Assembly (NCBI RefSeq): GCF_020982545.1
Contig: NZ_JAJKLK010000021.1
Location: 248,001 to 312,000 of the forward strand
Direction of reading: 5' to 3'
DNA length: 64,000 bases
From: Streptomyces sp. MNU76
Lineage (GTDB): Bacteria; Actinomycetota; Actinomycetes; Streptomycetales; Streptomycetaceae
A program made the translations under genes and the position numbers. Under the pieces are notes generated by a model. The model worked only from the letters and a program-made list of their open reading frames with translations, was not told the DNA's origin and did no database searches. This document shows positions 4,571-61,905 of this stretch, piece by piece. Position 1 is the first letter of the stretch. Each line of letters opens with the position of its first letter.

Positions 4571-4692
4571 GTTGTCGGGTGTGGGTCTGAAAGAGGCCGG
4601 GCTGCGGGGATGAAAAGCATGGGGCGCAGCCCCTGCTTTTCAGGGGCGCGGGGAACTGCGCGAGAAGCCCCACCGGGCCGGCACCCGACAAC
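4571..4692 (+). repeat. GC-rich intergenic repeat, copy A (full length)
   Basis: Terminal inverted repeats GTTGTCGGGTG (4571-4581) and CACCCGACAAC (4682-4692) bound the element. An internal hairpin TGAAAAGCA...TGCTTTTCA encloses GGGG/CCCC (4611-4642). The family core GGGGCGCGGGGAACTGCGCG begins at 4643 and is followed by AGAAGCCCCACC. It starts 20 nt after the cimA stop, on the sense strand of cimA. It is the only content seen in the 233-bp gap 4552-4784 apart from the promoter of the next gene. Confidence 0.85.
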
Positions 4693-13296: not shown

Positions 13297-13326
13297 AAGG
13301 GACCCTCTCCGAAAGGAGGGTCCCTT
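13297..13326 (+). terminator. terminator after accBE
   Basis: An 11-bp perfect stem AAGGGACCCTC/GAGGGTCCCTT (13297-13307 with 13316-13326) begins 14 nt after the accE stop. Confidence 0.85.
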
Positions 13327-13330
13327 GGCG

Positions 13331-13434
13331 TGTGGGTCGGGTGCGGGTGGGTGGGGGTTGCCCGCGCAGTTCCCCGCGCCCCTAAAGACACAGGCCCTGC
13401 GCGAGAAGCCCCACCCACCCGCACCCGACCCACA
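13331..13434 (-). repeat. GC-rich intergenic repeat, copy B (full length, minus orientation)
   Basis: 26-nt perfect terminal inverted repeats occupy 13331-13356 and 13409-13434. The family core lies inside at 13363-13383 on the minus strand (CGCGCAGTTCCCCGCGCCCCT on plus is its reverse complement, with one base beyond the 20-nt core). On the minus strand it is 120 nt downstream of the stop of cvnD1, which is transcribed toward it. Confidence 0.85.
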
Positions 13435-13438
13435 ACGA

Positions 13439-13476
13439 AGGGGACCCCTTCCCGCAACAACGGGAAGGGGTCCCCT
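13439..13476. terminator. terminator between accBE and conservon 1
   Basis: A perfect 16-bp stem AGGGGACCCCTTCCCG (13439-13454) with 13461-13476, loop CAACAA. It is 26 nt past the cvnD1 stop on the minus strand and probably ends the conservon transcript. Confidence 0.8.
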
Positions 13477-28339: not shown

Positions 28340-28411
28340 TGGCCTATGGTGTAATTGGCAGCACGACTGATTCTGGTTCAGTTAGTCTTGGTTCGAGTCC
28401 AGGTAGGCCAG
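28340..28411 (+). tRNA. tRNA-Gln (anticodon CTG), copy 1
   Basis: 72 nt. Acceptor arms TGGCCTA (28340-28346) and TAGGCCA (28404-28410) with discriminator G. Anticodon stem ACTGA/TCAGT around loop TTCTGGT gives anticodon CTG. T-arm GGTTCGAGTCC is normal. CCA is not encoded. The weak U1-A72 pair is typical of tRNA-Gln. Confidence 0.96.
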
Positions 28412-28451
28412 CTCGCAGAGCTCATCTGCAGGCGGAGATCAACTCCGCGAA

Positions 28452-28524
28452 GCCCCCGTTGTGTAGCGGCCTAGCACGCTGCCCTCTCAAGGCAGTAGCG
28501 CCGGTTCGAATCCGGTCGGGGGTA
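28452..28524 (+). tRNA. tRNA-Glu (anticodon CTC), copy 1
   Basis: 73 nt. Acceptor GCCCCCG with CGGGGGT and discriminator A. Anticodon stem CTGCC/GGCAG encloses CTCTCAA, giving CTC. T-arm GGTTCGAATCC. CCA is not encoded. Its anticodon stem differs from the other two copies by a compensated T-A for C-G pair. Confidence 0.96.
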
Positions 28525-28586
28525 CAGATCCTTCCCGCGGGGAGAGTTCGGGTCGCACCCGCTCACCTCGATGCAGGATCGCTAGG

Positions 28587-28659
28587 GCCCCCGTTGTGTA
28601 GCGGCCTAGCACGCCGCCCTCTCAAGGCGGTAGCGCCGGTTCGAATCCGGTCGGGGGTA
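28587..28659 (+). tRNA. tRNA-Glu (anticodon CTC), copy 2
   Basis: 73 nt, same fold as copy 1 but with anticodon stem CCGCC/GGCGG. CCA is not encoded. Confidence 0.96.
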
Positions 28660-28679
28660 CTGACTGGTCTAAACCATAT

Positions 28680-28751
28680 TGGTCTATGGTGTAATTGGCA
28701 GCACGACTGATTCTGGTTCAGTTAGTCTTGGTTCGAGTCCAGGTAGACCAG
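28680..28751 (+). tRNA. tRNA-Gln (anticodon CTG), copy 2
   Basis: 72 nt, identical to Gln copy 1 except acceptor TGGTCTA/TAGACCA, where a C-G pair is replaced by T-A on both arms. Anticodon CTG. CCA is not encoded. Confidence 0.96.
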
Positions 28752-28795
28752 CTCGGACCTGCGGCGGTCCAGTACTCAACGCTTGCAGGATCCAC

Positions 28796-28868
28796 GCCCC
28801 CGTTGTGTAGCGGCCTAGCACGCCGCCCTCTCAAGGCGGTAGCGCCGGTTCGAATCCGGTCGGGGGTA
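28796..28868 (+). tRNA. tRNA-Glu (anticodon CTC), copy 3
   Basis: 73 nt, identical in sequence to Glu copy 2. Last tRNA of the cluster; a terminator hairpin starts 9 nt later. Confidence 0.96.
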
Positions 28869-32632: not shown

Positions 32633-33283
32633 GTGAACAAGGCGCAGCTCGTAGAAGCGATTGCGGACAAGGTCGGCGGGCGTCAGCAGGCCGCCGACGC
32701 GGTCGACGCCGTTCTGGACGCCATCGTCCGCGCGGTCGTCGGCGGGGACCGGGTGTCGGTCACCGGCTTCGGTTCGTTCGAGAAGGTCGACCGGCCTGCC
32801 CGTTACGCCCGCAACCCGCAGACGGGTGAGCGGGTTCGGGTCAAGAAGACCTCCGTGCCGCGTTTCCGCGCGGGTCAGGGCTTCAAGGACCTGGTGAGCG
32901 GGTCGAAGAAGCTTCCCCGTGGTGGCGAGGTCGCGGTCAAGAAGGCGCCCAAGGGCAGCCTGAGCGGTGGGGCTTCGGCGACGGTCAAGAAGGCGGCGGC
33001 GAAGAAGACCACCGCGAAGAAGACCACCGCCCGCAAGACCACTGCCGCCGCCAAGAAGACGACGGCCGCCGCGAAGAAGACCACGGCGAAGAAGACGACC
33101 GCCAAGAAGGCCACCACGAAGACGGCGGCGGCGAAGAAGACGACCGCCAAGACGACGGCGGCGGCGAAGAAGACCGCGGCGAAGAAGGCCCCGGCCAAGA
33201 AGGCCACCGCGAAGAAGGCGCCGGCCAAGAAGTCGACGGCTCGCAAGACGACCGCGAAGAAGACGGCCGCGCGTCAGGCCTAG
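32633..33283 (+). CDS. hupS: nucleoid HU protein with lysine-rich tail
   Basis: 216 residues. Residues 1-95 are a standard HU fold (NKAQLVEAIADKVGG..., GFGSFEKVDRPARYARNPQTGERV, arm KTSVPRFRAGQGFKDLV). Residues about 105-216 are a histone H1-like tail built of AKKTTAKK/KKAPAKK units. This two-part architecture is the HupS type of Streptomyces, associated with nucleoid compaction in spores. GTG 32633 with GGGGAAG 5-8 nt upstream. The tail DNA is itself a degenerate repeat of AAGAAG/ACCGCC triplets, so its length is likely to vary between strains. Confidence 0.94.
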   Translation: MNKAQLVEAIADKVGGRQQAADAVDAVLDAIVRAVVGGDRVSVTGFGSFEKVDRPARYARNPQTGERVRVKKTSVPRFRAGQGFKDLVSGSKKLPRGGEVAVKKAPKGSLSGGASATVKKAAAKKTTAKKTTARKTTAAAKKTTAAAKKTTAKKTTAKKATTKTAAAKKTTAKTTAAAKKTAAKKAPAKKATAKKAPAKKSTARKTTAKKTAARQA

Positions 33284-33301
33284 GGCGCCGGGTACTCACA
33301 C

Positions 33302-33350: not shown

Positions 33351-33436
33351 TCTGGGGCAGGGCAGGGAGGCAGGGCAGAGGCGCCTGTTCGCCGTGGGGG
33401 ACTTGTTCGCGGGCGGGTGCGGCTTGTGTGTGGTTG

Positions 33437-33458
33437 CTCGCGCAGTTCCCCGCGCCGC
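33437..33458 (-). repeat. GC-rich intergenic repeat, copy C (core only, minus)
   Basis: The plus strand carries CGCGCAGTTCCCCGCGCCGC, the reverse complement of the family core with a diverged end. On the minus strand it lies about 31 nt downstream of the stop of the small gene at 33489-33692. Confidence 0.75.
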
Positions 33459-33488
33459 TTTGGGGGCGCGGCCTTGGTGCGAGTCCGT

Positions 33489-36399: not shown

Positions 36400-37557
36400 A
36401 TGAGCAGCGAGAACCTCCCCCAGAGCCCTGAGCAGCCGTCCCGCAAGCCGCGCGTGGCCGTCGTCTTCGGCGGCCGCAGCTCGGAACACGGGATCTCCGT
36501 GGTCACGGCCGGCGCCGTACTGCGAGCCATCGACCGGACGAAGTACGACGTCCTGCCGATCGGTATCACGCGGGACGGCCGTTGGGCGCTCACCGCCGAC
36601 GAACCGGAGCGGATGGCGATCACCGACCGCCGTACGCCGAGCGTCGAGGAGCTCGCCGAGTCCCGGGAGGGCGGCGTGATCCTGCCCGTCGACCCCGCCA
36701 ACCGCGAAGTCGTCTACAGCGAGCCCGGTTCGGTACCCAAGGCCCTCGGCGAGGTCGACGTCGTCTTCCCCGTCCTGCACGGCCCGTACGGCGAGGACGG
36801 CACCCTCCAGGGCCTTTTGGAACTCTCCGGCGTCCCGTACGTCGGCTCGGGCGTCCTCGCCTCGGCCGTCGGCCAGGACAAGGAGTACATGAAGAGGGTG
36901 TTCACCTCCTTCGGGCTCAAGGTCGGCCCGTACGTGGTGATCAGGCCGCGCGAGTGGCAGCTCGACGAGTCGGCCGCCCGCAAGAAGATCATCGATCTCG
37001 CCGGTGAGCACGGCTGGCCCCTCTTCGTGAAGCCCGCCCGCGCGGGCTCCTCCATCGGCATCACCAAGGTCGACGACATCGTCGGCCTCGACGAGGCCAT
37101 CGCCGAGGCCCAGCGTCACGACCCGAAGATCCTGGTCGAGGCGGCCCTGCGCGGCCGGGAGATCGAGTGCGGCGTCCTGGAGTTCGAGGACGGCCCGCGC
37201 GCCTCCGTCCCCGCCGAGATCCCGCCGCCCGAGGCCCACGCGTACTACGACTTCGAGGCGAAGTACATCGACTCGACCCCCGGCATCGTCCCGGCCCCGC
37301 TGACCCCGGAGGAGACCGCCGAGGTCCAGCGGCTCGCGGTCGACGCCTTCGAGGCCGCCTCCTGCGAGGGTCTGGTGCGCGCCGACTTCTTCCTCACGGA
37401 GGAGGGCGACTTCGTCATCAACGAGATCAACACGCTCCCCGGCTTCACACCGATCTCGATGTACCCGGCGATGTGGAAGGCGAGCGGGGTGGAGTACGGC
37501 GAACTGGTGGACCGCCTGATCCAGGCGGCGCTGCACAGGTCGACGGGCTTGCGCTGA
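36400..37557 (+). CDS. ddl: D-alanine--D-alanine ligase
   Basis: 385 residues, ATP-grasp enzyme joining two D-Ala for peptidoglycan. N-terminal VAVVFGGRSSEHGISVVTAGAV, central HGPYGEDGTLQGLLELSGVPYVGSG, ATP-grasp PLFVKPARAGSSIGITKV and metal-binding FVINEINTLPGFTPISMYP. Tyr in GPYGEDG marks the D-Ala-D-Ala rather than D-Ala-D-Lac type as I know the family (Y/F discriminates), though this is not absolute. ATG 36400; TACTCT lies 10 nt upstream and may be a -10 for a very short leader. Repeat copy D follows its stop. Confidence 0.95.
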   Translation: MSSENLPQSPEQPSRKPRVAVVFGGRSSEHGISVVTAGAVLRAIDRTKYDVLPIGITRDGRWALTADEPERMAITDRRTPSVEELAESREGGVILPVDPANREVVYSEPGSVPKALGEVDVVFPVLHGPYGEDGTLQGLLELSGVPYVGSGVLASAVGQDKEYMKRVFTSFGLKVGPYVVIRPREWQLDESAARKKIIDLAGEHGWPLFVKPARAGSSIGITKVDDIVGLDEAIAEAQRHDPKILVEAALRGREIECGVLEFEDGPRASVPAEIPPPEAHAYYDFEAKYIDSTPGIVPAPLTPEETAEVQRLAVDAFEAASCEGLVRADFFLTEEGDFVINEINTLPGFTPISMYPAMWKASGVEYGELVDRLIQAALHRSTGLR

Positions 37558-37570
37558 CACGAGCCCCGTA

Positions 37571-37600
37571 AGGGGCGCGGGGAACTGCGCGACCAGCCAC
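37571..37600 (+). repeat. GC-rich intergenic repeat, copy D
   Basis: The core and its 3' extension (GACCAGCCAC) begin 14 nt after the ddl stop, on the ddl strand. Over 30 nt it differs at one base from the copy inside smc (60031-60060). Confidence 0.85.
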
Positions 37601-42671: not shown

Positions 42672-45600
42672 CGCTTCCCTCGCCCCCGCCGCCCCCAATA
42701 GGGGCGCGGGGAACTGCGCGAGAAGCCCCACCGGGCCCGCAGACGACCGACAAGCGCGCCCCCGGCCGCTCAGCCCCGCCCGTCGCCTCCAGCAGCCGCC
42801 CCGCCTCCTCCCGCCGAGCCACCACCGTCTCCTCGCCGTCGCTCCCGTCCGCGAACACGGACAACACCCCCCGGGCCCGCTCGGCCGCGGCAGCGCCTCG
42901 CCGAAGGTCCACCTCCAACCACCCCGCCGCCAGCTCCGCGGCGGTACGCGCGTCGACGAAGTCCGGCCCCAACGACCCGTACACCGACACCGCCCGCTCG
43001 ACGAACCCCAACGCCTCCTCGAAGACCGGCCCGAACGAGGCGAGTTCCGCGTCCTCGGCCACGGACCGGGCGAGCAGGTCGCCGAACTGCCGGTAGGTCT
43101 CGCCGAGCTCCGCGAAGATCCGCCGCCGGTTCTCCTCCCCGGTCACGTCGGACAGGGCCGCCTCGCAGCCCGCCACCGCGTCCCCCATCAGCTCCCGGGC
43201 CTCGTCCAGGCCCGCGGGCCCGGGAGCTTCACGGCTCTCCCGCGCCGCGTACCACGCCCGCGCCCGCAGCGCCCGCACATACCCGTGGACGTTGCCCAGC
43301 TCGCCCCAGAGGTCGACCGCGCGCGCGTACGCCCGGTCGGCGTCGGCGGGCAGCCCCGCGCGCGCCAGCGCCTCGGCGGCGAGATGGGCGAGCATGGCGT
43401 GGTCGCGCTGCTCGGGCCAGTGCCGGGCGATGTCGGCGGCCCGCAGCCAGCGTTCCGCCGCCTCGCGGTGCTCGCCCAGCTCGGTGTGGCAGTCCCCGAG
43501 CCACCACAAGGTCTGCGCGACCGCCCCGTCCCCGTGGGTCTCGGCCGTGAGGTCGGGGAGCGCCGACTCCAGTACCTCGGCCGCCTCCGCCCACCGCCCG
43601 AGCCGCAGCAGGAACCCGCCGAGCAGATGCCGGGCCCAGGAGCCGAGCGTCGGACCCTCGCCCGCCTCGTCGGCCCAGTGCGCCGCCTCCAGGGCCTGCT
43701 CGGCGGCCTCCTCGATCCGTTCACCGGCGCCCAGCAACTCGGCCAGCTGGAGGCGCAGCTGGGCGTGGCCCACCGGCTCCAGCTCGGACCCGCCGTGCTC
43801 CAACGCCGCCCGGGCCGCCCGCTCCGCGGTCGCCAGGTTCCCCAGGTGCTGCGCCACCCCGGCGAGCCGCGCCTCGTACTGCACCGCGAACCACGGCAGC
43901 CCCGCCGCCACGTACCGTTCCGCGGCCTCCGCGAACAGTTCGGCGGCCGCCTCGGCGGCACCGCCGCGCGCGGCCAGTTCCCCGAGCATGCCCCGCGCCT
44001 CCGCGGCCCGCGAGGCCAGCCGTACGTCCTCCGCGCGGCGCGGCTCGACGAAGTCCGCCAGCTCCCGCACGGCCTCCTCGGCCAGGGCCACCGCGTCGGC
44101 CTCCTCGGACTCGTGCGTCCGCTGCACGAGTATCCGTGCCCGCCCGACCAGCACGGAGGCCGTCTGCCGCGCGCCCGTCCCGCCGGCCGACCAGAGGGCG
44201 AGGATCCGCTCGTACGGCTCGGATATCAGCTCCACGGCGGCGTCCACCTGGCCCGTGAGGGCGTGGACGTTCGCGGCACGCGCGCGTGCCGCCAGTGCCT
44301 CGCCGGGGTCGCCCGCCGCCTCGTACATGTCGGCCGCGCGTTCGAAGAGCGGGCGGCCCTCCGGCCCGAGGCCGATCGCCTCGTGGTCCACGATCTCCGC
44401 GCGGTCCCAGGCGTCCAGCTCCGCGCCCTCGGTGTCGGCGGCCCGCGCCACGGCGGCCCAGGCCTCGACGGAACCGGGGTGCAGGGACGCCGAGAGCCGC
44501 CGCGCCTCGGCGAGGAGCGCGGGCAGGCCCTGGGGCGCGGCGGCGGTCCCCGCGTTCTCCCCCGAGGCGGGCTGCCGGGGCGCGGGCACGGTCACGGCGG
44601 CCCGCTTCGCGCGCACGCCCAGCGGCAGCCGGTCCAGCAGGGGGCGCCGGTCCATCCTCTCCCGAACGTGCGTGCTGACGTACGCCGTGCCGTTGCGCGC
44701 GTCGAAGAGCGCGGCCAGCGCGTGGGCCTCCTCGCGCGCGTGGGAGGCCAGTTCGCCGGCGGTCCACTCCCGGCCGGGGGGACCGGGGACGGTCTGCTCG
44801 CCCAGCCCACGCGCGGTGAGGCGGTCCATCAGCAGGGCCACCACGCTCAGGTAGTCCAGCTTGCTGCGCGGGTCGCCGGAATCGGTGAAGTACGCCGGAC
44901 GCTCGGCCAGCAGCTCCAGGCCGCGCGCCTCGTTGCCGGTCAGGGCGCAGAACTCCACATGGTCCGCGTACGCGCCCCGCATGCTCTCCATGGCCCGCAC
45001 CATCCGGAAACCCCGCAGATGGTGGGCCCGCGCCTCGTCCGGGCGCCCCAGGCGCAGCAGCGGCACCAGCGAGGACGCGAGGACGGTGTGCGGCTCGTGG
45101 GCGCAGGTGTACTCGCCCTCCAGGACCGGCGCCCACAGCTCCAGCGCCTCGGCGTCCTCCCGGCGCCGCGCCCGCCACCAGCCCTGCCCGTGCAGCTCGC
45201 ACGCGTGGCAGTCGGCCATCGTGTCCCGGTCGGCGGCCAGCCACGCCCCGTACGCCCGCTCGGCCCGCTCCAGGTCACCGATGTGCGCGGCCACACTGAA
45301 CTCGGCGCTGCGCACGGCCCGTTCCGAGTGCCCGGCGAGCCGGTAGCGGTGCTCCATCTCGCCGAGCCACTTCTCGATGGAGGCCAGCGGAATGTGCGGC
45401 TGGTTCAGCATGCCGGCCGACATCCACTTGAACACCCAGTGCAGGGAGTGGATCTCGTACTCGTCGAAGTCCTCCGGCCGTTCGTCCCACATGCGCAGCA
45501 GGCGCGCGAAGGGGACGAACATCTTGGCTTTCTCGGAGCTGTAGTTGTAGACCTTCAGCTGGTGCCCGAGCGCCTCGATCACGGCGAGCGGCTCGTTCAG

Positions 45601-50040: not shown

Positions 50041-50070
50041 AGGGGCGCGGGAACTGCGCGAGCAACCACG
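50041..50070 (+). repeat. GC-rich intergenic repeat, copy F
   Basis: The core with one G deleted (AGGGGCGCGGGAACTGCGCG, 50041-50060) plus AGCAACCACG, 17 nt after the recG stop and on the recG strand. Confidence 0.8.
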
Positions 50071-50217
50071 AGGGACCCGCGGTCGCTTACGTCGATCGCC
50101 AGGCACCCCGCCAGGCGAACCCGCAGCCGTCCCGCAGCCGCCCACGGCAGAACGCGCCCCTCCCCTCCGACTGCCAGACTGGACCCACAGTCGCCTCCTC
50201 CTCACCAAGGACCCAAG

Positions 50218-54361: not shown

Positions 54362-54483
54362 GTCGGGTGCGGGTGGGTGGGGCTAGAAAGCCCAGGCCCT
54401 GTGGCCCTGGGAAGGCACGGGGCGCAGCCTGCTTTTCAGGGGCGCGGGGAACTGCGCGACCAGCCCACCCACCCGCACCCGAC
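54362..54483 (+). repeat. GC-rich intergenic repeat, copy G (full length)
   Basis: Terminal inverted repeats GTCGGGTGCGGGTGGGTGG... (54362-54384) and its complement (54462-54483, one G shorter) flank a GCAGCCTGCTTTTCAGGGG segment and the core at 54438-54466. It lies 45 nt after rnc on the rnc strand and fills most of the 209-bp gap to mutM. Confidence 0.85.
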
Positions 54484-54526
54484 CCACGACCTCATGCACC
54501 CCCACCCCCGCTCTCCGGAGGACCCC

Positions 54527-58272: not shown

Positions 58273-61200
58273 GTGCACCTCAAGGCCCTGACCCTCCGTG
58301 GGTTCAAATCGTTCGCCTCGGCGACCACGCTCCGGTTCGAACCGGGCATCACGTGCGTCGTCGGGCCCAACGGTTCGGGCAAGTCCAACGTCGTGGACGC
58401 GCTCAGCTGGGTCATGGGCGAACAGGGCGCCAAGTCGCTGCGCGGCGGCAAGATGGAGGACGTCATCTTCGCCGGCACCACCGGGCGCCCCCCGCTCGGC
58501 CGCGCCGAGGTGTCGCTGACCATCGACAACTCCGACGGGGCCCTCCCCATCGAGTACTCCGAGGTCACGATCACGCGGATCATGTTCCGCAACGGCGGCA
58601 GCGAGTACCAGATCAACGGCGACACCTGCCGGCTCCTCGACATCCAGGACCTGCTCTCCGACTCCGGCATCGGCCGTGAGATGCACGTCATCGTCGGCCA
58701 GGGACAGCTGGACTCCGTCCTGCACGCCGACCCCATGGGCCGCCGCGCCTTCATCGAGGAGGCCGCCGGCGTCCTCAAGCACCGCAAGCGCAAGGAGAAG
58801 GCGCTCCGGAAACTGGACGCCATGCAGGCCAACCTGGCGCGCGTCCAGGACCTCACCGACGAACTCCGCCGTCAGCTCAAGCCGCTCGGCCGCCAGGCCG
58901 CCGTCGCACGCCGGGCCGCCGTCATCCAGGCCGACCTGCGCGACGCCCGCCTGCGCCTGCTCGCCGACGATCTCGTACGCCTCCACGCCGCGCTCCGTAC
59001 GGAGGTCGCCGACGAGGCCGCGCTGAAGCAGCGCAAGGAGGCCGCCGAGACCGAGCTGAAGAAGGCGCTCCAGCGGGAGGCCCATCTGGAGGGCGAGGTG
59101 CGCCGGCTGGCCCCCCGCCTCCAGCGCGCCCAGGAGACCTGGTACGAGCTGTCGCAGCTCGCCGAGCGGGTGCGCGGCACGATCTCCCTGGCCGACGCCC
59201 GGGTCAAGAGCGCCACCTCCGCGCCCGCCGAGGAGCGGCGCGGCCGCGACCCGGAGGACATGGAGCGCGAGGCCGCCCGCATCCGTGAACAGGAGGCCGA
59301 ACTCGAGGCGGCCCTGGGGGCCGCCGAGCGCGCCCTGGAGGACACCGTCGAGCACCGCGCCGACCTGGAGCGGCAACTCGTGGTCGAGGAACGCCGGCTG
59401 AAGGACGTCGCCCGCACCATCGCCGACCGCCGCGAGAGCCTCGCCCGGCTGAACGGCCAGGTCAACGCCGCCCGCTCCCGCGCGGCCTCCGCACAGTCCG
59501 AGATCGACCGCCTCGCCGCCGCCCGCGACGAGGCGCGCGAACGCGCCGCCGCCGCCCAGGAGGAGTACGAGGCGCTCAAGGCCGAGGTCGACACCCTCGA
59601 CGCCGGCGACTCCGACCTGGCCGAACAGCACGACGCCGCGAAGCGCGCCCTGGCCGAGGCCGAGACCGCTCTCGCCGCCGCCCGCGAGGCCACGACCACG
59701 GCCGAACGCCGCCGGGCCGCCACCCAGGCCCGCCAAGAGGCCCTCGCTCTCGGCCTGCGCCGCAAGGACGGCACGGGCGCGCTGCTCGCCGCGAAGGACC
59801 GGCTGGGCGGAGTACTGGGCCCGGCCGCCGAGCTGCTGACGGTCACCCCGGGCTACGAGATCGCCCTCGCGGCGGCCTTCGGCGCGGCGGCCGACGCGAT
59901 CGCGGTGACCTCACCCTCCGCGGCGGCGGAGGCGATCCGCCTGCTGCGCAAGCAGGACGCGGGCCGCGCGGCCCTGCTGCTGGCAGGAGCACCGGACGAC
60001 GTGGCGCCGTCCTCGGGGACAGCGCCTCACAGGGCCGCGGGGAACTGCGCGACCAGCCACGACGGGCCCGCGGACGAAAGAGGACCTCTCCCGGCATCCC
60101 CTCCCGCGCGCTTCGCCGCAGACCTGACCCGGACCCCCTCCGACCTCACACCCGCCGTACGCCGCCTCCTGCACCGCATCGTCGTCGTGGACACCCTCGA
60201 GGACGCCGAGGCCCTGGTCTACGCCCGCCCCGACCTCACCGCCGTGACCGCCGAAGGCGACCTGCTCGGGGCCCACTTCGCGCACGGCGGCTCGGCCGGG
60301 GCACCGAGCCTGCTGGAGGTGCAGGCCGCCGTCGACGAGGCGGCGGCCGAGCTGGAGGAGCTCGCCGTACGGTGCGAGGAGCTGGCCGAGGCACAGCGGC
60401 ACGCGGTCGAGCTGCGCCGGGAGCGGGCCGGGATCGTGGAGGAACTGGGGGAGCGGCGCCGGGCGGGCGAGCGGGAGAGGTCGGGCGTGGCGCAGCAGCT
60501 CGGGCGGCTGGCCGGCCAGGCGCGGGGCGCCGCCGGGGAGGCGGAGCGGTCCACGGCCGCCGCCGCACGCGCCCAGGAGTCGCTCGACAAGGCCGTGGAG
60601 GACGCCGAGGAGCTGGCCGAACGGCTCGCGGTGGCCGAGGAGATGCCCGTGGAGGAGGAGCCGGACACCTTCGTACGGGACCGGCTCGCGGCGGACGGGG
60701 CCAACGCGCGGCAGACCGAGATGGAGGCACGGCTCCAGGTGCGGACGCACGAGGAGCGGGTCAAGGGGCTCGCGGGGCGTGCGGACTCCCTCGACCGGGC
60801 CGCGCGCGCCGAGCGCGAGGCGCAGGCGCGCGCCGAACAGCGCACAGCGCGGCTGCGGCACGAGGCGGCCGTGGCCGAGGCCGTCGCCTCCGGCGCCCGG
60901 CAGCTGCTCCGCCACGTCGAGGTCTCCCTCACCCGCGCGGAGCGGGAACGCACCGCCGCCGACGCGGCCAAGGCACGCCGTGAGCAGGAGCTGGCGCAGG
61001 CCCGCAACGAGGGGAGGGACCTCAAGGCGGAGCTGGACAAGCTGACCGACTCCGTCCACCGGGGCGAGGTGCTCGGCGCCGAGAAGCGGATGCGGATCGA
61101 GCAGCTGGAGACCAAGGCGCTGGAGGAGCTGGGCGTCGAACCGGAGGGGCTGATCGCGGAGTACGGGCCCGACCAGCTCGTACCGCCGTCGCCGCCTGCG

Positions 61201-61905
61201 GAGGGGGAGGAGCTGCCGGAGGACCCGGAGCACCCCCGCAACCAGCCGAAGACGTTCCACCGCGCCGAGCAGGAGAAGCGGCTGAAGGCGGCCGAGCGGG
61301 CGTACCAGCAGCTCGGCAAGGTCAATCCGCTGGCGCTGGAGGAGTTCGCGGCGCTGGAGGAACGACATAAGTTCCTCAGCGAGCAGTTGGAGGACCTGAA
61401 GAAGACCCGTGCCGATCTGCTGCAGGTGGTGAAGGAGGTCGACGAGCGGGTCGAGCAGGTCTTCACCGAGGCCTACTGGGACACCGCGCGGGAGTTCGAG
61501 GGCGTGTTCGGCCGGCTCTTCCCCGGCGGCGAGGGACGGCTGATCCTCACCGACCCGGACAACATGCTCACCACCGGTGTCGACGTGGAGGCCCGGCCGC
61601 CGGGCAAGAAGGTGAAGCGGCTGTCGCTGCTCTCGGGCGGGGAGCGGTCGCTGACCGCCGTCGCCATGCTGGTGTCGATCTTCAAGGCGCGGCCCAGCCC
61701 GTTCTATGTGATGGACGAGGTCGAGGCGGCGCTCGACGACACCAACCTCCAGCGGCTGATCCGGATCATGCAGGAGCTGCAGGAGGCCTCGCAGCTGATC
61801 GTGATCACCCACCAGAAGCGGACCATGGAGGTCGCCGACGCGCTGTACGGCGTGTCCATGCAAGGCGACGGTGTCTCGAAGGTGATCAGCCAGCGGCTGC
61901 GTTAG
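58273..61905 (+). CDS. smc: chromosome segregation ATPase SMC
   Basis: 1210 residues. N-terminal head with Walker A GPNGSGKSN (about 31-39), two long coiled-coil arms, a hinge at about 505-680, and C-terminal head with signature LSGGERSLTA and Walker B FYVMDEVEAALDD. With ScpAB it organises and segregates the chromosome. The GTG at 58273 gives MHLKALTLRGFKSFAS, the universal SMC start; a reading frame back to 58198 is not supported. Within the hinge region, residues about 584-600 (RAAGNCATSHDGPADER and flanks) are encoded by a copy of the GC-rich intergenic repeat on the smc sense strand. They add a short Gly/Ala/Pro-rich segment with a Cys. The frame stays open, so the protein is probably functional. 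Confidence 0.95.
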   Translation: MHLKALTLRGFKSFASATTLRFEPGITCVVGPNGSGKSNVVDALSWVMGEQGAKSLRGGKMEDVIFAGTTGRPPLGRAEVSLTIDNSDGALPIEYSEVTITRIMFRNGGSEYQINGDTCRLLDIQDLLSDSGIGREMHVIVGQGQLDSVLHADPMGRRAFIEEAAGVLKHRKRKEKALRKLDAMQANLARVQDLTDELRRQLKPLGRQAAVARRAAVIQADLRDARLRLLADDLVRLHAALRTEVADEAALKQRKEAAETELKKALQREAHLEGEVRRLAPRLQRAQETWYELSQLAERVRGTISLADARVKSATSAPAEERRGRDPEDMEREAARIREQEAELEAALGAAERALEDTVEHRADLERQLVVEERRLKDVARTIADRRESLARLNGQVNAARSRAASAQSEIDRLAAARDEARERAAAAQEEYEALKAEVDTLDAGDSDLAEQHDAAKRALAEAETALAAAREATTTAERRRAATQARQEALALGLRRKDGTGALLAAKDRLGGVLGPAAELLTVTPGYEIALAAAFGAAADAIAVTSPSAAAEAIRLLRKQDAGRAALLLAGAPDDVAPSSGTAPHRAAGNCATSHDGPADERGPLPASPPARFAADLTRTPSDLTPAVRRLLHRIVVVDTLEDAEALVYARPDLTAVTAEGDLLGAHFAHGGSAGAPSLLEVQAAVDEAAAELEELAVRCEELAEAQRHAVELRRERAGIVEELGERRRAGERERSGVAQQLGRLAGQARGAAGEAERSTAAAARAQESLDKAVEDAEELAERLAVAEEMPVEEEPDTFVRDRLAADGANARQTEMEARLQVRTHEERVKGLAGRADSLDRAARAEREAQARAEQRTARLRHEAAVAEAVASGARQLLRHVEVSLTRAERERTAADAAKARREQELAQARNEGRDLKAELDKLTDSVHRGEVLGAEKRMRIEQLETKALEELGVEPEGLIAEYGPDQLVPPSPPAEGEELPEDPEHPRNQPKTFHRAEQEKRLKAAERAYQQLGKVNPLALEEFAALEERHKFLSEQLEDLKKTRADLLQVVKEVDERVEQVFTEAYWDTAREFEGVFGRLFPGGEGRLILTDPDNMLTTGVDVEARPPGKKVKRLSLLSGGERSLTAVAMLVSIFKARPSPFYVMDEVEAALDDTNLQRLIRIMQELQEASQLIVITHQKRTMEVADALYGVSMQGDGVSKVISQRLR
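60031..60080 (+). repeat. GC-rich repeat copy H, in frame inside smc
   Basis: AGGGCCGCGGGGAACTGCGC (60031-60050) then GACCAGCCACGACGGGCCCG: over the first 30 nt one mismatch from copy D after ddl, and similar to copies E and G. It lies between hinge segments ALLLAGAPDD and ADLTRTPSDLTPAVRRLL. Confidence 0.85.

Follow-up and report, generated by a model that had tools for sequence, protein, structure and literature searches.

The smc locus and its repeat family

The window analysed here, a stretch of 64,000 nucleotides from Streptomyces sp. MNU76, carries a full-length smc gene that contains a member of a dispersed repeat family in frame (Table 1). The gene product matches the full-length equivalog model NCBIfam TIGR02168 over residues 3–1209 (E 8.5e-277, 921 bits), and its SMC_N head (PF02463), SMC_hinge domain (PF06470) and TIGR02168 match together place it among the bacterial SMC proteins. 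Hinge homologues in the PDB are 5h69 and 1gxl. The core of the repeat corresponds to about residues 587–596 and lies within the Pfam SMC_hinge match (residues 513–648), not in a linker next to the hinge as the preliminary description had supposed. The designation of smc as an essential gene does not hold either, since smc deletion strains of S. venezuelae have been grown, analysed and used in spore-germination studies, as passages of PMC13121528 report. When the hinge structure was predicted from a 21-row alignment, the mean pLDDT was 55 and the pTM 0.35, and no conclusion is drawn from the model.

Table 1. Features of the smc locus and copies of the repeat family in the window
Feature	Position	Strand	Remarks
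smc, chromosome partition protein SMC	58273..61905	+	GTG start, 1210 aa; translation, NCBIfam and Pfam matches
SMC_hinge domain	59809..60216	+	residues 513–648; Pfam PF06470, E 1.9e-21
captured element	60021..60112	+	about 92 nt; consensus termini AGCGC...GCGCT; right border 60108–60112
core of captured element	60031..60060	+	AGGGCCGCGGGGAACTGCGCGACCAGCCAC; 29/30 identities with the copy at 37571–37600; reads RAAGNCATSH
ddl-like ORF	36400..37557	+	precedes the copy at 37571–37600
intergenic family copy	37571..37600	+	begins 14 nt past the stop of the ddl-like ORF
copy of smc-core repeat family	4642..4670	+
copy of smc-core repeat family	13355..13386	-
copy of smc-core repeat family	33430..33465	-
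copy of smc-core repeat family	42700..42728	+
less similar copy of smc-core repeat family	50049..50085	+
copy of smc-core repeat family	54438..54467	+	3 mismatches to the smc core

The ORF that precedes the nearly identical intergenic copy presumably encodes a D-Ala-D-Ala ligase. The single mismatch in 30 nucleotides that had been noted between this copy (37571–37600) and 60031–60060 was reproduced. At a threshold of at most three mismatches, the core was found three times in the window, smc itself included, and never in 100 dinucleotide shuffles. In the 10.5-Mb genome the core GCGCGGGGAACTGCGCGA (at most one mismatch) occurs at 452 places as against 0 for a reversed control, and inverted pairs about 30–125 bp apart, judged by eye, are common among the places listed. 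Of 36 genomes tested, 33 have dispersed copies of the captured subtype, its right half included, and genome G000 has it at 22 places.

The family is largely intergenic. In two contiguous G000 stretches (712 kb, short and long forms together, crude gene calls), convergent gaps hold 22 of 55 intergenic copies while making up 65 of 419 gaps (p=5e-5), divergent gaps hold 3 of 55 while making up 90 of 419, and tandem gaps hold 30 of 55. For the 52 copies having a nearest stop codon, it lies a median of 66 nt away. By the crude gene calls, 3 of 58 copies lie within genes; a codon-flank test supports no intragenic copy other than the one in smc and a chance match. This test was applied to 77 core copies from about 852 kb, of which 140 kb had been picked for holding copies; it found coding sequence on both sides of two, in smc and at C1:974094. 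The latter, in an ORF that we take to encode an HpcH/citrate-lyase-type enzyme, shares little beyond the core, looks like chance and was rejected as a second intragenic copy. Thus, smc holds the sole convincing intragenic copy among these 77.

Rfam families above the gathering score in the whole window are limited to five tRNAs, which stand in a row of two alternating kinds at 28340–28868. A 42-nt inverted repeat (86%; 13318–13359 and 13406–13447) encloses a minus-strand family copy, and its arm recurs at 54464–54507. Lysine/alanine-rich repeats with a 15-nt spacing occupy 32939–33286 (coding reading by eye).

Extent and reading frame of the captured element

The smc reading frame passes through the core as ...APHRAAGNCATSHDGPADE..., and the homology extends along the whole element. 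An ungapped alignment to a hand-trimmed 92-nt consensus covers 60021–60112 with 72/92 identities and a score of 52, the best of 209 other smc windows reaching 14. An alignment to a recomputed consensus covers 60021–60108 with one 3-nt gap, 71/85 identities and again a score of 52, other smc windows scoring 15 or less. Since the two equally scoring alignments share position 60021 and end at 60108 or 60112, the left border is well fixed, whereas the right one can be placed only to within about 4 nt. The extent first proposed, 60013–60110, was therefore nearly right, the computed borders being 60021 and 60108–60112.

The recomputed consensus was built from 51 non-smc copies, one from the genome of Streptomyces sp. 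MNU76 and 50 from other genomes, the latter taken from loci fetched for their resemblance to the translated smc segment. The hand-trimmed consensus may include smc copies from loci L289–L316, which the recomputed one excludes. The consensus is 92 nt long and open in all six frames, and 15 of the 22 copies with locatable ends measure exactly 92 nt. The terminal inverted repeats characteristic of MITEs are present in the consensus of the 51 non-smc copies as AGCGC...GCGCT (5 bp). With homology along the whole element and 452 core copies in the genome, the observation of an intergenic repeat lying in frame within smc is confirmed and extended. The earlier emphasis on the added cysteine is not supported: among SMC proteins fitting the short-form peptide pattern, Cys is found in 18 of 23 and is replaced by Gly, Arg or Trp in the other five. 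A composite repeat peptide gave no match in a tblastn search of a plasmid collection.

Distribution in Streptomyces and related genera

An even draw of 150 Streptomyces genomes provided 144 with an smc match, of which 138 were fetched and 133 parsed. Six (G114, G112, G119, G008, G139 and G145) were left out before the loops were seen, as truncated, chimeric or partial, and five loci (L205, L230, L234, L236 and L243) failed anchor parsing. The core was matched at least once in 117 of the 150 genomes drawn, with counts ranging from 0 to 852. The element occupies smc in 25 of the 133 genomes when short forms, long forms and one core-deleted form are counted and a decayed remnant (L115) is taken as lacking it; the similarity of smc loops to the element is close to bimodal. 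A single recent event does not agree with an element common to so many genomes. Carriers with species names include S. curacoi, S. pseudovenezuelae, S. lanatus, S. muensis and S. indiaensis. Every detected smc copy lies on the plus strand and in one frame, with a GAGN/GAGL-like reading.

The hinge loop that holds the element ranges from 21 to 355 aa in the 133 genomes, with a median of 46. It measures 21–28 aa in many repeat-less Streptomyces as against 30–102 aa in the 25 carriers, and unrelated inserts reach 355 aa in repeat-less lineages. In view of this hypervariability, the prediction that strains without the repeat should lack about 20–30 residues exactly there is borne out only roughly.

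At least 19 genomic core matches are present in each of the 25 carriers, compared with 30 of 108 non-carriers (Fisher p=4e-12, phylogeny uncorrected), an association that is confounded with phylogeny. High copy number is not sufficient for capture, since G059 has 852 core matches and a repeat-less loop of 23 aa. On an SMC tree of 162 tips (29 from named genomes), presence and absence of the element require 14 changes, whereas shuffles require 32 on average and at least 25. Carriers thus cluster, though repeat-less loops lie among them, and gains, losses or recombination must be added to the explanation favoured below, against which this counts. L146 and L126 are close relatives without the repeat; in distal smc, L146 and the carrier L141 share about 95% identity.

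Outside the genus, the core was matched 0–2 times each in 15 genomes belonging to four further genera of the order. One of them lacks an SMC match, and the SMC alignments of the other 14 break or shorten at the element site. Conservation of the same residues in genera without the repeat, which would have spoken against capture, was thus not found.

Conservation of the element as DNA

The captured segment is conserved more faithfully as DNA than as protein. Codons were compared in 23 sequences fitting one short-form peptide pattern, with long and degenerate forms left out; this set includes loci ranked by similarity to the window, beyond the even draw. Over the 15 element codons, amino acids differ in a fraction of 0.218 of the comparisons, compared with 0.127 and 0.114 in the flanking hinge, while the synonymous difference at fourfold codons is 0.138 in the element as against 0.475 and 0.341 in the flanks, where the lowest single window gives 0.22. 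Codon retention is 0.915 where the same codons in the flanking hinge predict 0.671. With a longer stretch of smc as the reference, it is 0.901 against an expected 0.653, an excess of +0.247 that none of 752 other 15-codon smc windows attains (window maximum +0.168). Only 6% of smc windows exceed the element in amino-acid variation, the window mean being 0.095. The retention excess is due to rare codons: AGG is retained at 1.00 in the element as against 0.10 elsewhere, GGG at 0.95 as against 0.21 and GCA at 0.59 as against 0.12. The loop codons just beyond the element (AADL) are not frozen, with a retention of 0.39–0.50. The last three loop codons beyond it (VRG) show 0.80–0.83, a spill-over that counts against conversion.

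Synonymous divergence climbs within about 400 nt of the loop in pairs with at least one carrier and more weakly in other pairs. In 25 carrier–carrier pairs the fourfold differences rise to 0.58 beside the loop as against 0.13–0.32 upstream, and in 45 repeat-less pairs they are flat at 0.17–0.30. In disjoint pairs the near/far ratio is 1.86 with a carrier (20 pairs) and 1.46 without one (47 pairs; p=0.004). The pairs were picked for low distal divergence, and the same synonymous halo is seen in repeat-less pairs of the same clade. Hence, the rise is only suggestive of the loop as a recombination or mutation hot spot.

Two hairpin forms at the smc site

The family exists in a short hairpin form, GGGGAACTGCGCG, and a long hairpin form, GGGGCTGTATCAATATGCGGCTCCGCCGCG..., and both occur at the smc site. 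Dispersed copies of the long form were found in 30 of the 30 genomes examined, with 0 for the control. This form occupies smc in 5 of 35 carrier tips (L119, L120, L141, L039 and L147) and also in the similarity-ranked loci L016, L025, L028 and L029. On the SMC tree it requires five parsimony changes, each tip being separate, which does not differ from random placement among carriers (shuffled mean 4.8) and counts against conversion. L031 and L120 are sister tips, as are L034 and L141; each pair has the left flank and the beginning of the right one in common and differs in the hairpin. Among cases caught by pattern, the spacer length preserves the frame in 8 of 8 long forms in smc as against 2 of 9 elsewhere (p=0.002). 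By eye, L127, L170, L177, L186 and L153 hold two or three recognisable copies per loop. The core is deleted at the smc site in L118 and L115.

Origin and maintenance of the captured element

Capture followed by concerted evolution with the intergenic copies is the favoured explanation, to which we give about an even chance of being right. A REP- or MITE-like dispersed hairpin repeat would have entered smc in frame, once or a few times, in the ancestor of a large Streptomyces group, with the length-tolerant hinge loop as the point of entry. As the consensus is open in all six frames, the element could enter without truncating SMC. The embedded copy would then have ceased to evolve as a protein segment and exchanged sequence with tens to hundreds of intergenic copies, by gene conversion or template switching via the shared arms. 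Such exchange would bring the element's codons in smc back to those of the family; in several lineages it would also have swapped the short hairpin for the long one, and only frame-preserving versions would survive. Form switching and codon freeze are what concerted evolution with intergenic copies predicts. We infer conversion from other copies as the mechanism, and the effect of the element on SMC function would probably be close to neutral.

Some observations fit this explanation poorly. The similarity of smc copies to the family is not correlated with genomic copy number (Spearman 0.09, p=0.72; 20 short forms), which is counted against it, and a conversion tract was not observed directly. 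Some smc copies drift unconverted, because the Cys-to-Gly variant AACTGC>AACGGC, common in smc, has only 0–8 exact copies per genome (30 genomes, the smc copy sometimes included). More tentative still, with a chance somewhat short of even, is a wider proposal: conversion may keep rewriting the SMC hinge, swapping hairpins and raising codon divergence around it, so that a selfish family would edit a protein domain genus-wide in a loop that would serve as a general landing site, also for an unrelated second repeat family in another lineage.

The element could instead have been inserted afresh, again and again, into the same permissive hinge loop in many lineages, so that it would look young and conversion would be unneeded. 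The spacer between hinge strand and element, which varies from about 4 to 18 aa by eye, argues for this, as do the 14 changes on the SMC tree, the repeat-less L146 so close to L141 in distal smc, and an unrelated second repeat family in the same loop of another lineage. Near-consensus in-frame copies in two further genes point the same way. One is an MMPL transporter gene of S. aureoverticillatus (L062:1948–4248), where the repeat peptide lies in frame between the two MMPL halves; the other, in Streptomyces sp. GESEQ-4 (L065:2101–3558), encodes a membrane protein that matched no family. Each represents one genome, and as both were found using the translated repeat, their common frame is a matter of how they were selected. 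However, fresh insertions would hardly all share one orientation and frame when the consensus is open in six, nor would sister tips with short and long hairpins be expected to agree in the left flank and in part of the right one. Recurrent insertion is judged unlikely.

A functional smc hairpin, for instance a site for a nucleoid or repair protein or a signal for mRNA processing or pausing, would freeze codons through selection on DNA or RNA while amino acids vary, as is seen. Of four strings folded as single-stranded DNA, only a composite element, left arm included, comes out clearly below its shuffles (z -2.3), which speaks for this reading; the window copy gives z -0.44, and the intergenic and long-form strings give -0.97 and -0.52. 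Such selection is quite unlikely, considering these folds, the tolerance of core deletions (L118, L115) and of a swap to another hairpin, and the absence of the element in the close relatives L146 and L126.

Exaptation at the protein level, with a peptide useful to the hinge and kept by amino-acid selection, would account for a recognisable peptide in 25 of 133 genomes. It is very improbable and was rejected as the main cause, since codons are better conserved than amino acids: the element combines an amino-acid difference of more than twice the window mean with the most conserved codons of all windows. Moreover, Cys is lost in 5 of 23 sequences and in further loops, and the loop consists of unrelated sequence elsewhere in the genus. 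Chance resemblance between a GC-rich linker and the repeat, for which base composition and the chance-like core match in coding sequence at C1:974094 might speak, has a negligible probability and is refuted by the absence of matches in 100 shuffles, the element-long homology (52 as against at most 15 in 209 other smc windows) and the absence from other genera. The earlier interpretation as a whole is partly supported.

Relation to known repeat systems

The REP/BIME sequences of gammaproteobacteria occur in hundreds of intergenic copies near gene 3' ends, in convergent gaps and often in inverted pairs. The Streptomyces family resembles them in copy number, intergenic placement, nearness to gene 3' ends, convergent gaps and frequent inverted pairs. 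However, REP sequences have a RAYT partner, whereas a search of the genome of Streptomyces sp. MNU76 for the Y1 transposase (PF01797) gave 0 matches, with a control search positive in 5 of 14 known genomes. A RAYT for REP-style mobilisation was thus not found.

In its behaviour, the captured smc element appears to work like the Rickettsia palindromic elements (RPE). These are short palindromic repeats, intergenic as well as fused in frame to conserved protein genes, and are also known from Wolbachia; an RPE-bearing guanylate kinase keeps its activity, though its affinity is changed (PMC2229807 and PMC10969869, as far as passages of the two articles report). The smc family is likewise short, palindromic, intergenic and open, and stands in frame within a conserved protein gene; in-frame insertions in several unrelated protein genes, as in RPE, were found in smc, the MMPL gene and the membrane-protein gene. 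RPE measure 105–146 nt as against about 92 nt for the Streptomyces element, and intragenic copies are frequent among RPE as against about 1 in 77 in the Streptomyces family. The Streptomyces capture spans many species, is frozen as DNA and switches form, features that those passages do not describe for RPE. ERIC, RU, NEMIS and other MITE-like repeats show occasional in-frame gene fusions, according to a passage of PMC2229807. By description, they resemble the present case as intergenic repeats fused in frame to a gene, and differ in that the Streptomyces target is the SMC hinge and the terminal repeats have only 5 bp (AGCGC/GCGCT). Among the titles and abstract openings listed in literature searches, none described the repeat or its smc copy, and it is quite likely that the family itself has been described elsewhere.

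According to passages of PMC2229807 and PMC10969869, palindromic repeats have been captured in frame in Rickettsia, Wolbachia and enteric bacteria. Here the capture is in the SMC of Streptomyces and is old enough to be traced through a genus. The surprise is not the capture itself; it lies in the preservation of the captured segment as DNA and in the presence of both family forms within a reading frame. As the reading frame filters each change, the smc element can serve as a natural experiment on how coding and non-coding repeats exchange sequence, and also on the length tolerance of the SMC hinge, with 21–355 aa in one loop. It likewise calls for caution, as a conserved peptide may be conserved DNA and not conserved protein.

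The hinge loops hold further repetitive sequence. Loops of 200–355 aa occur in some Streptomyces (L187, L189, L134, L181 and others), and VPGQ/LPGQ motifs are repeated in many. The hinge loops L238, L246 and L241 (G074, G083 and G054), from a different Streptomyces lineage, contain in frame a dispersed repeat unrelated to the first, CCTTCCCGAAACTGGGGCTCCGCCCC, which reads FPHPAPSRNWG. With at most two mismatches this repeat has 8, 7 and 3 places in G074, G083 and G054 and 0 in G000, and its smc copy is among the places listed in G074 and G083.
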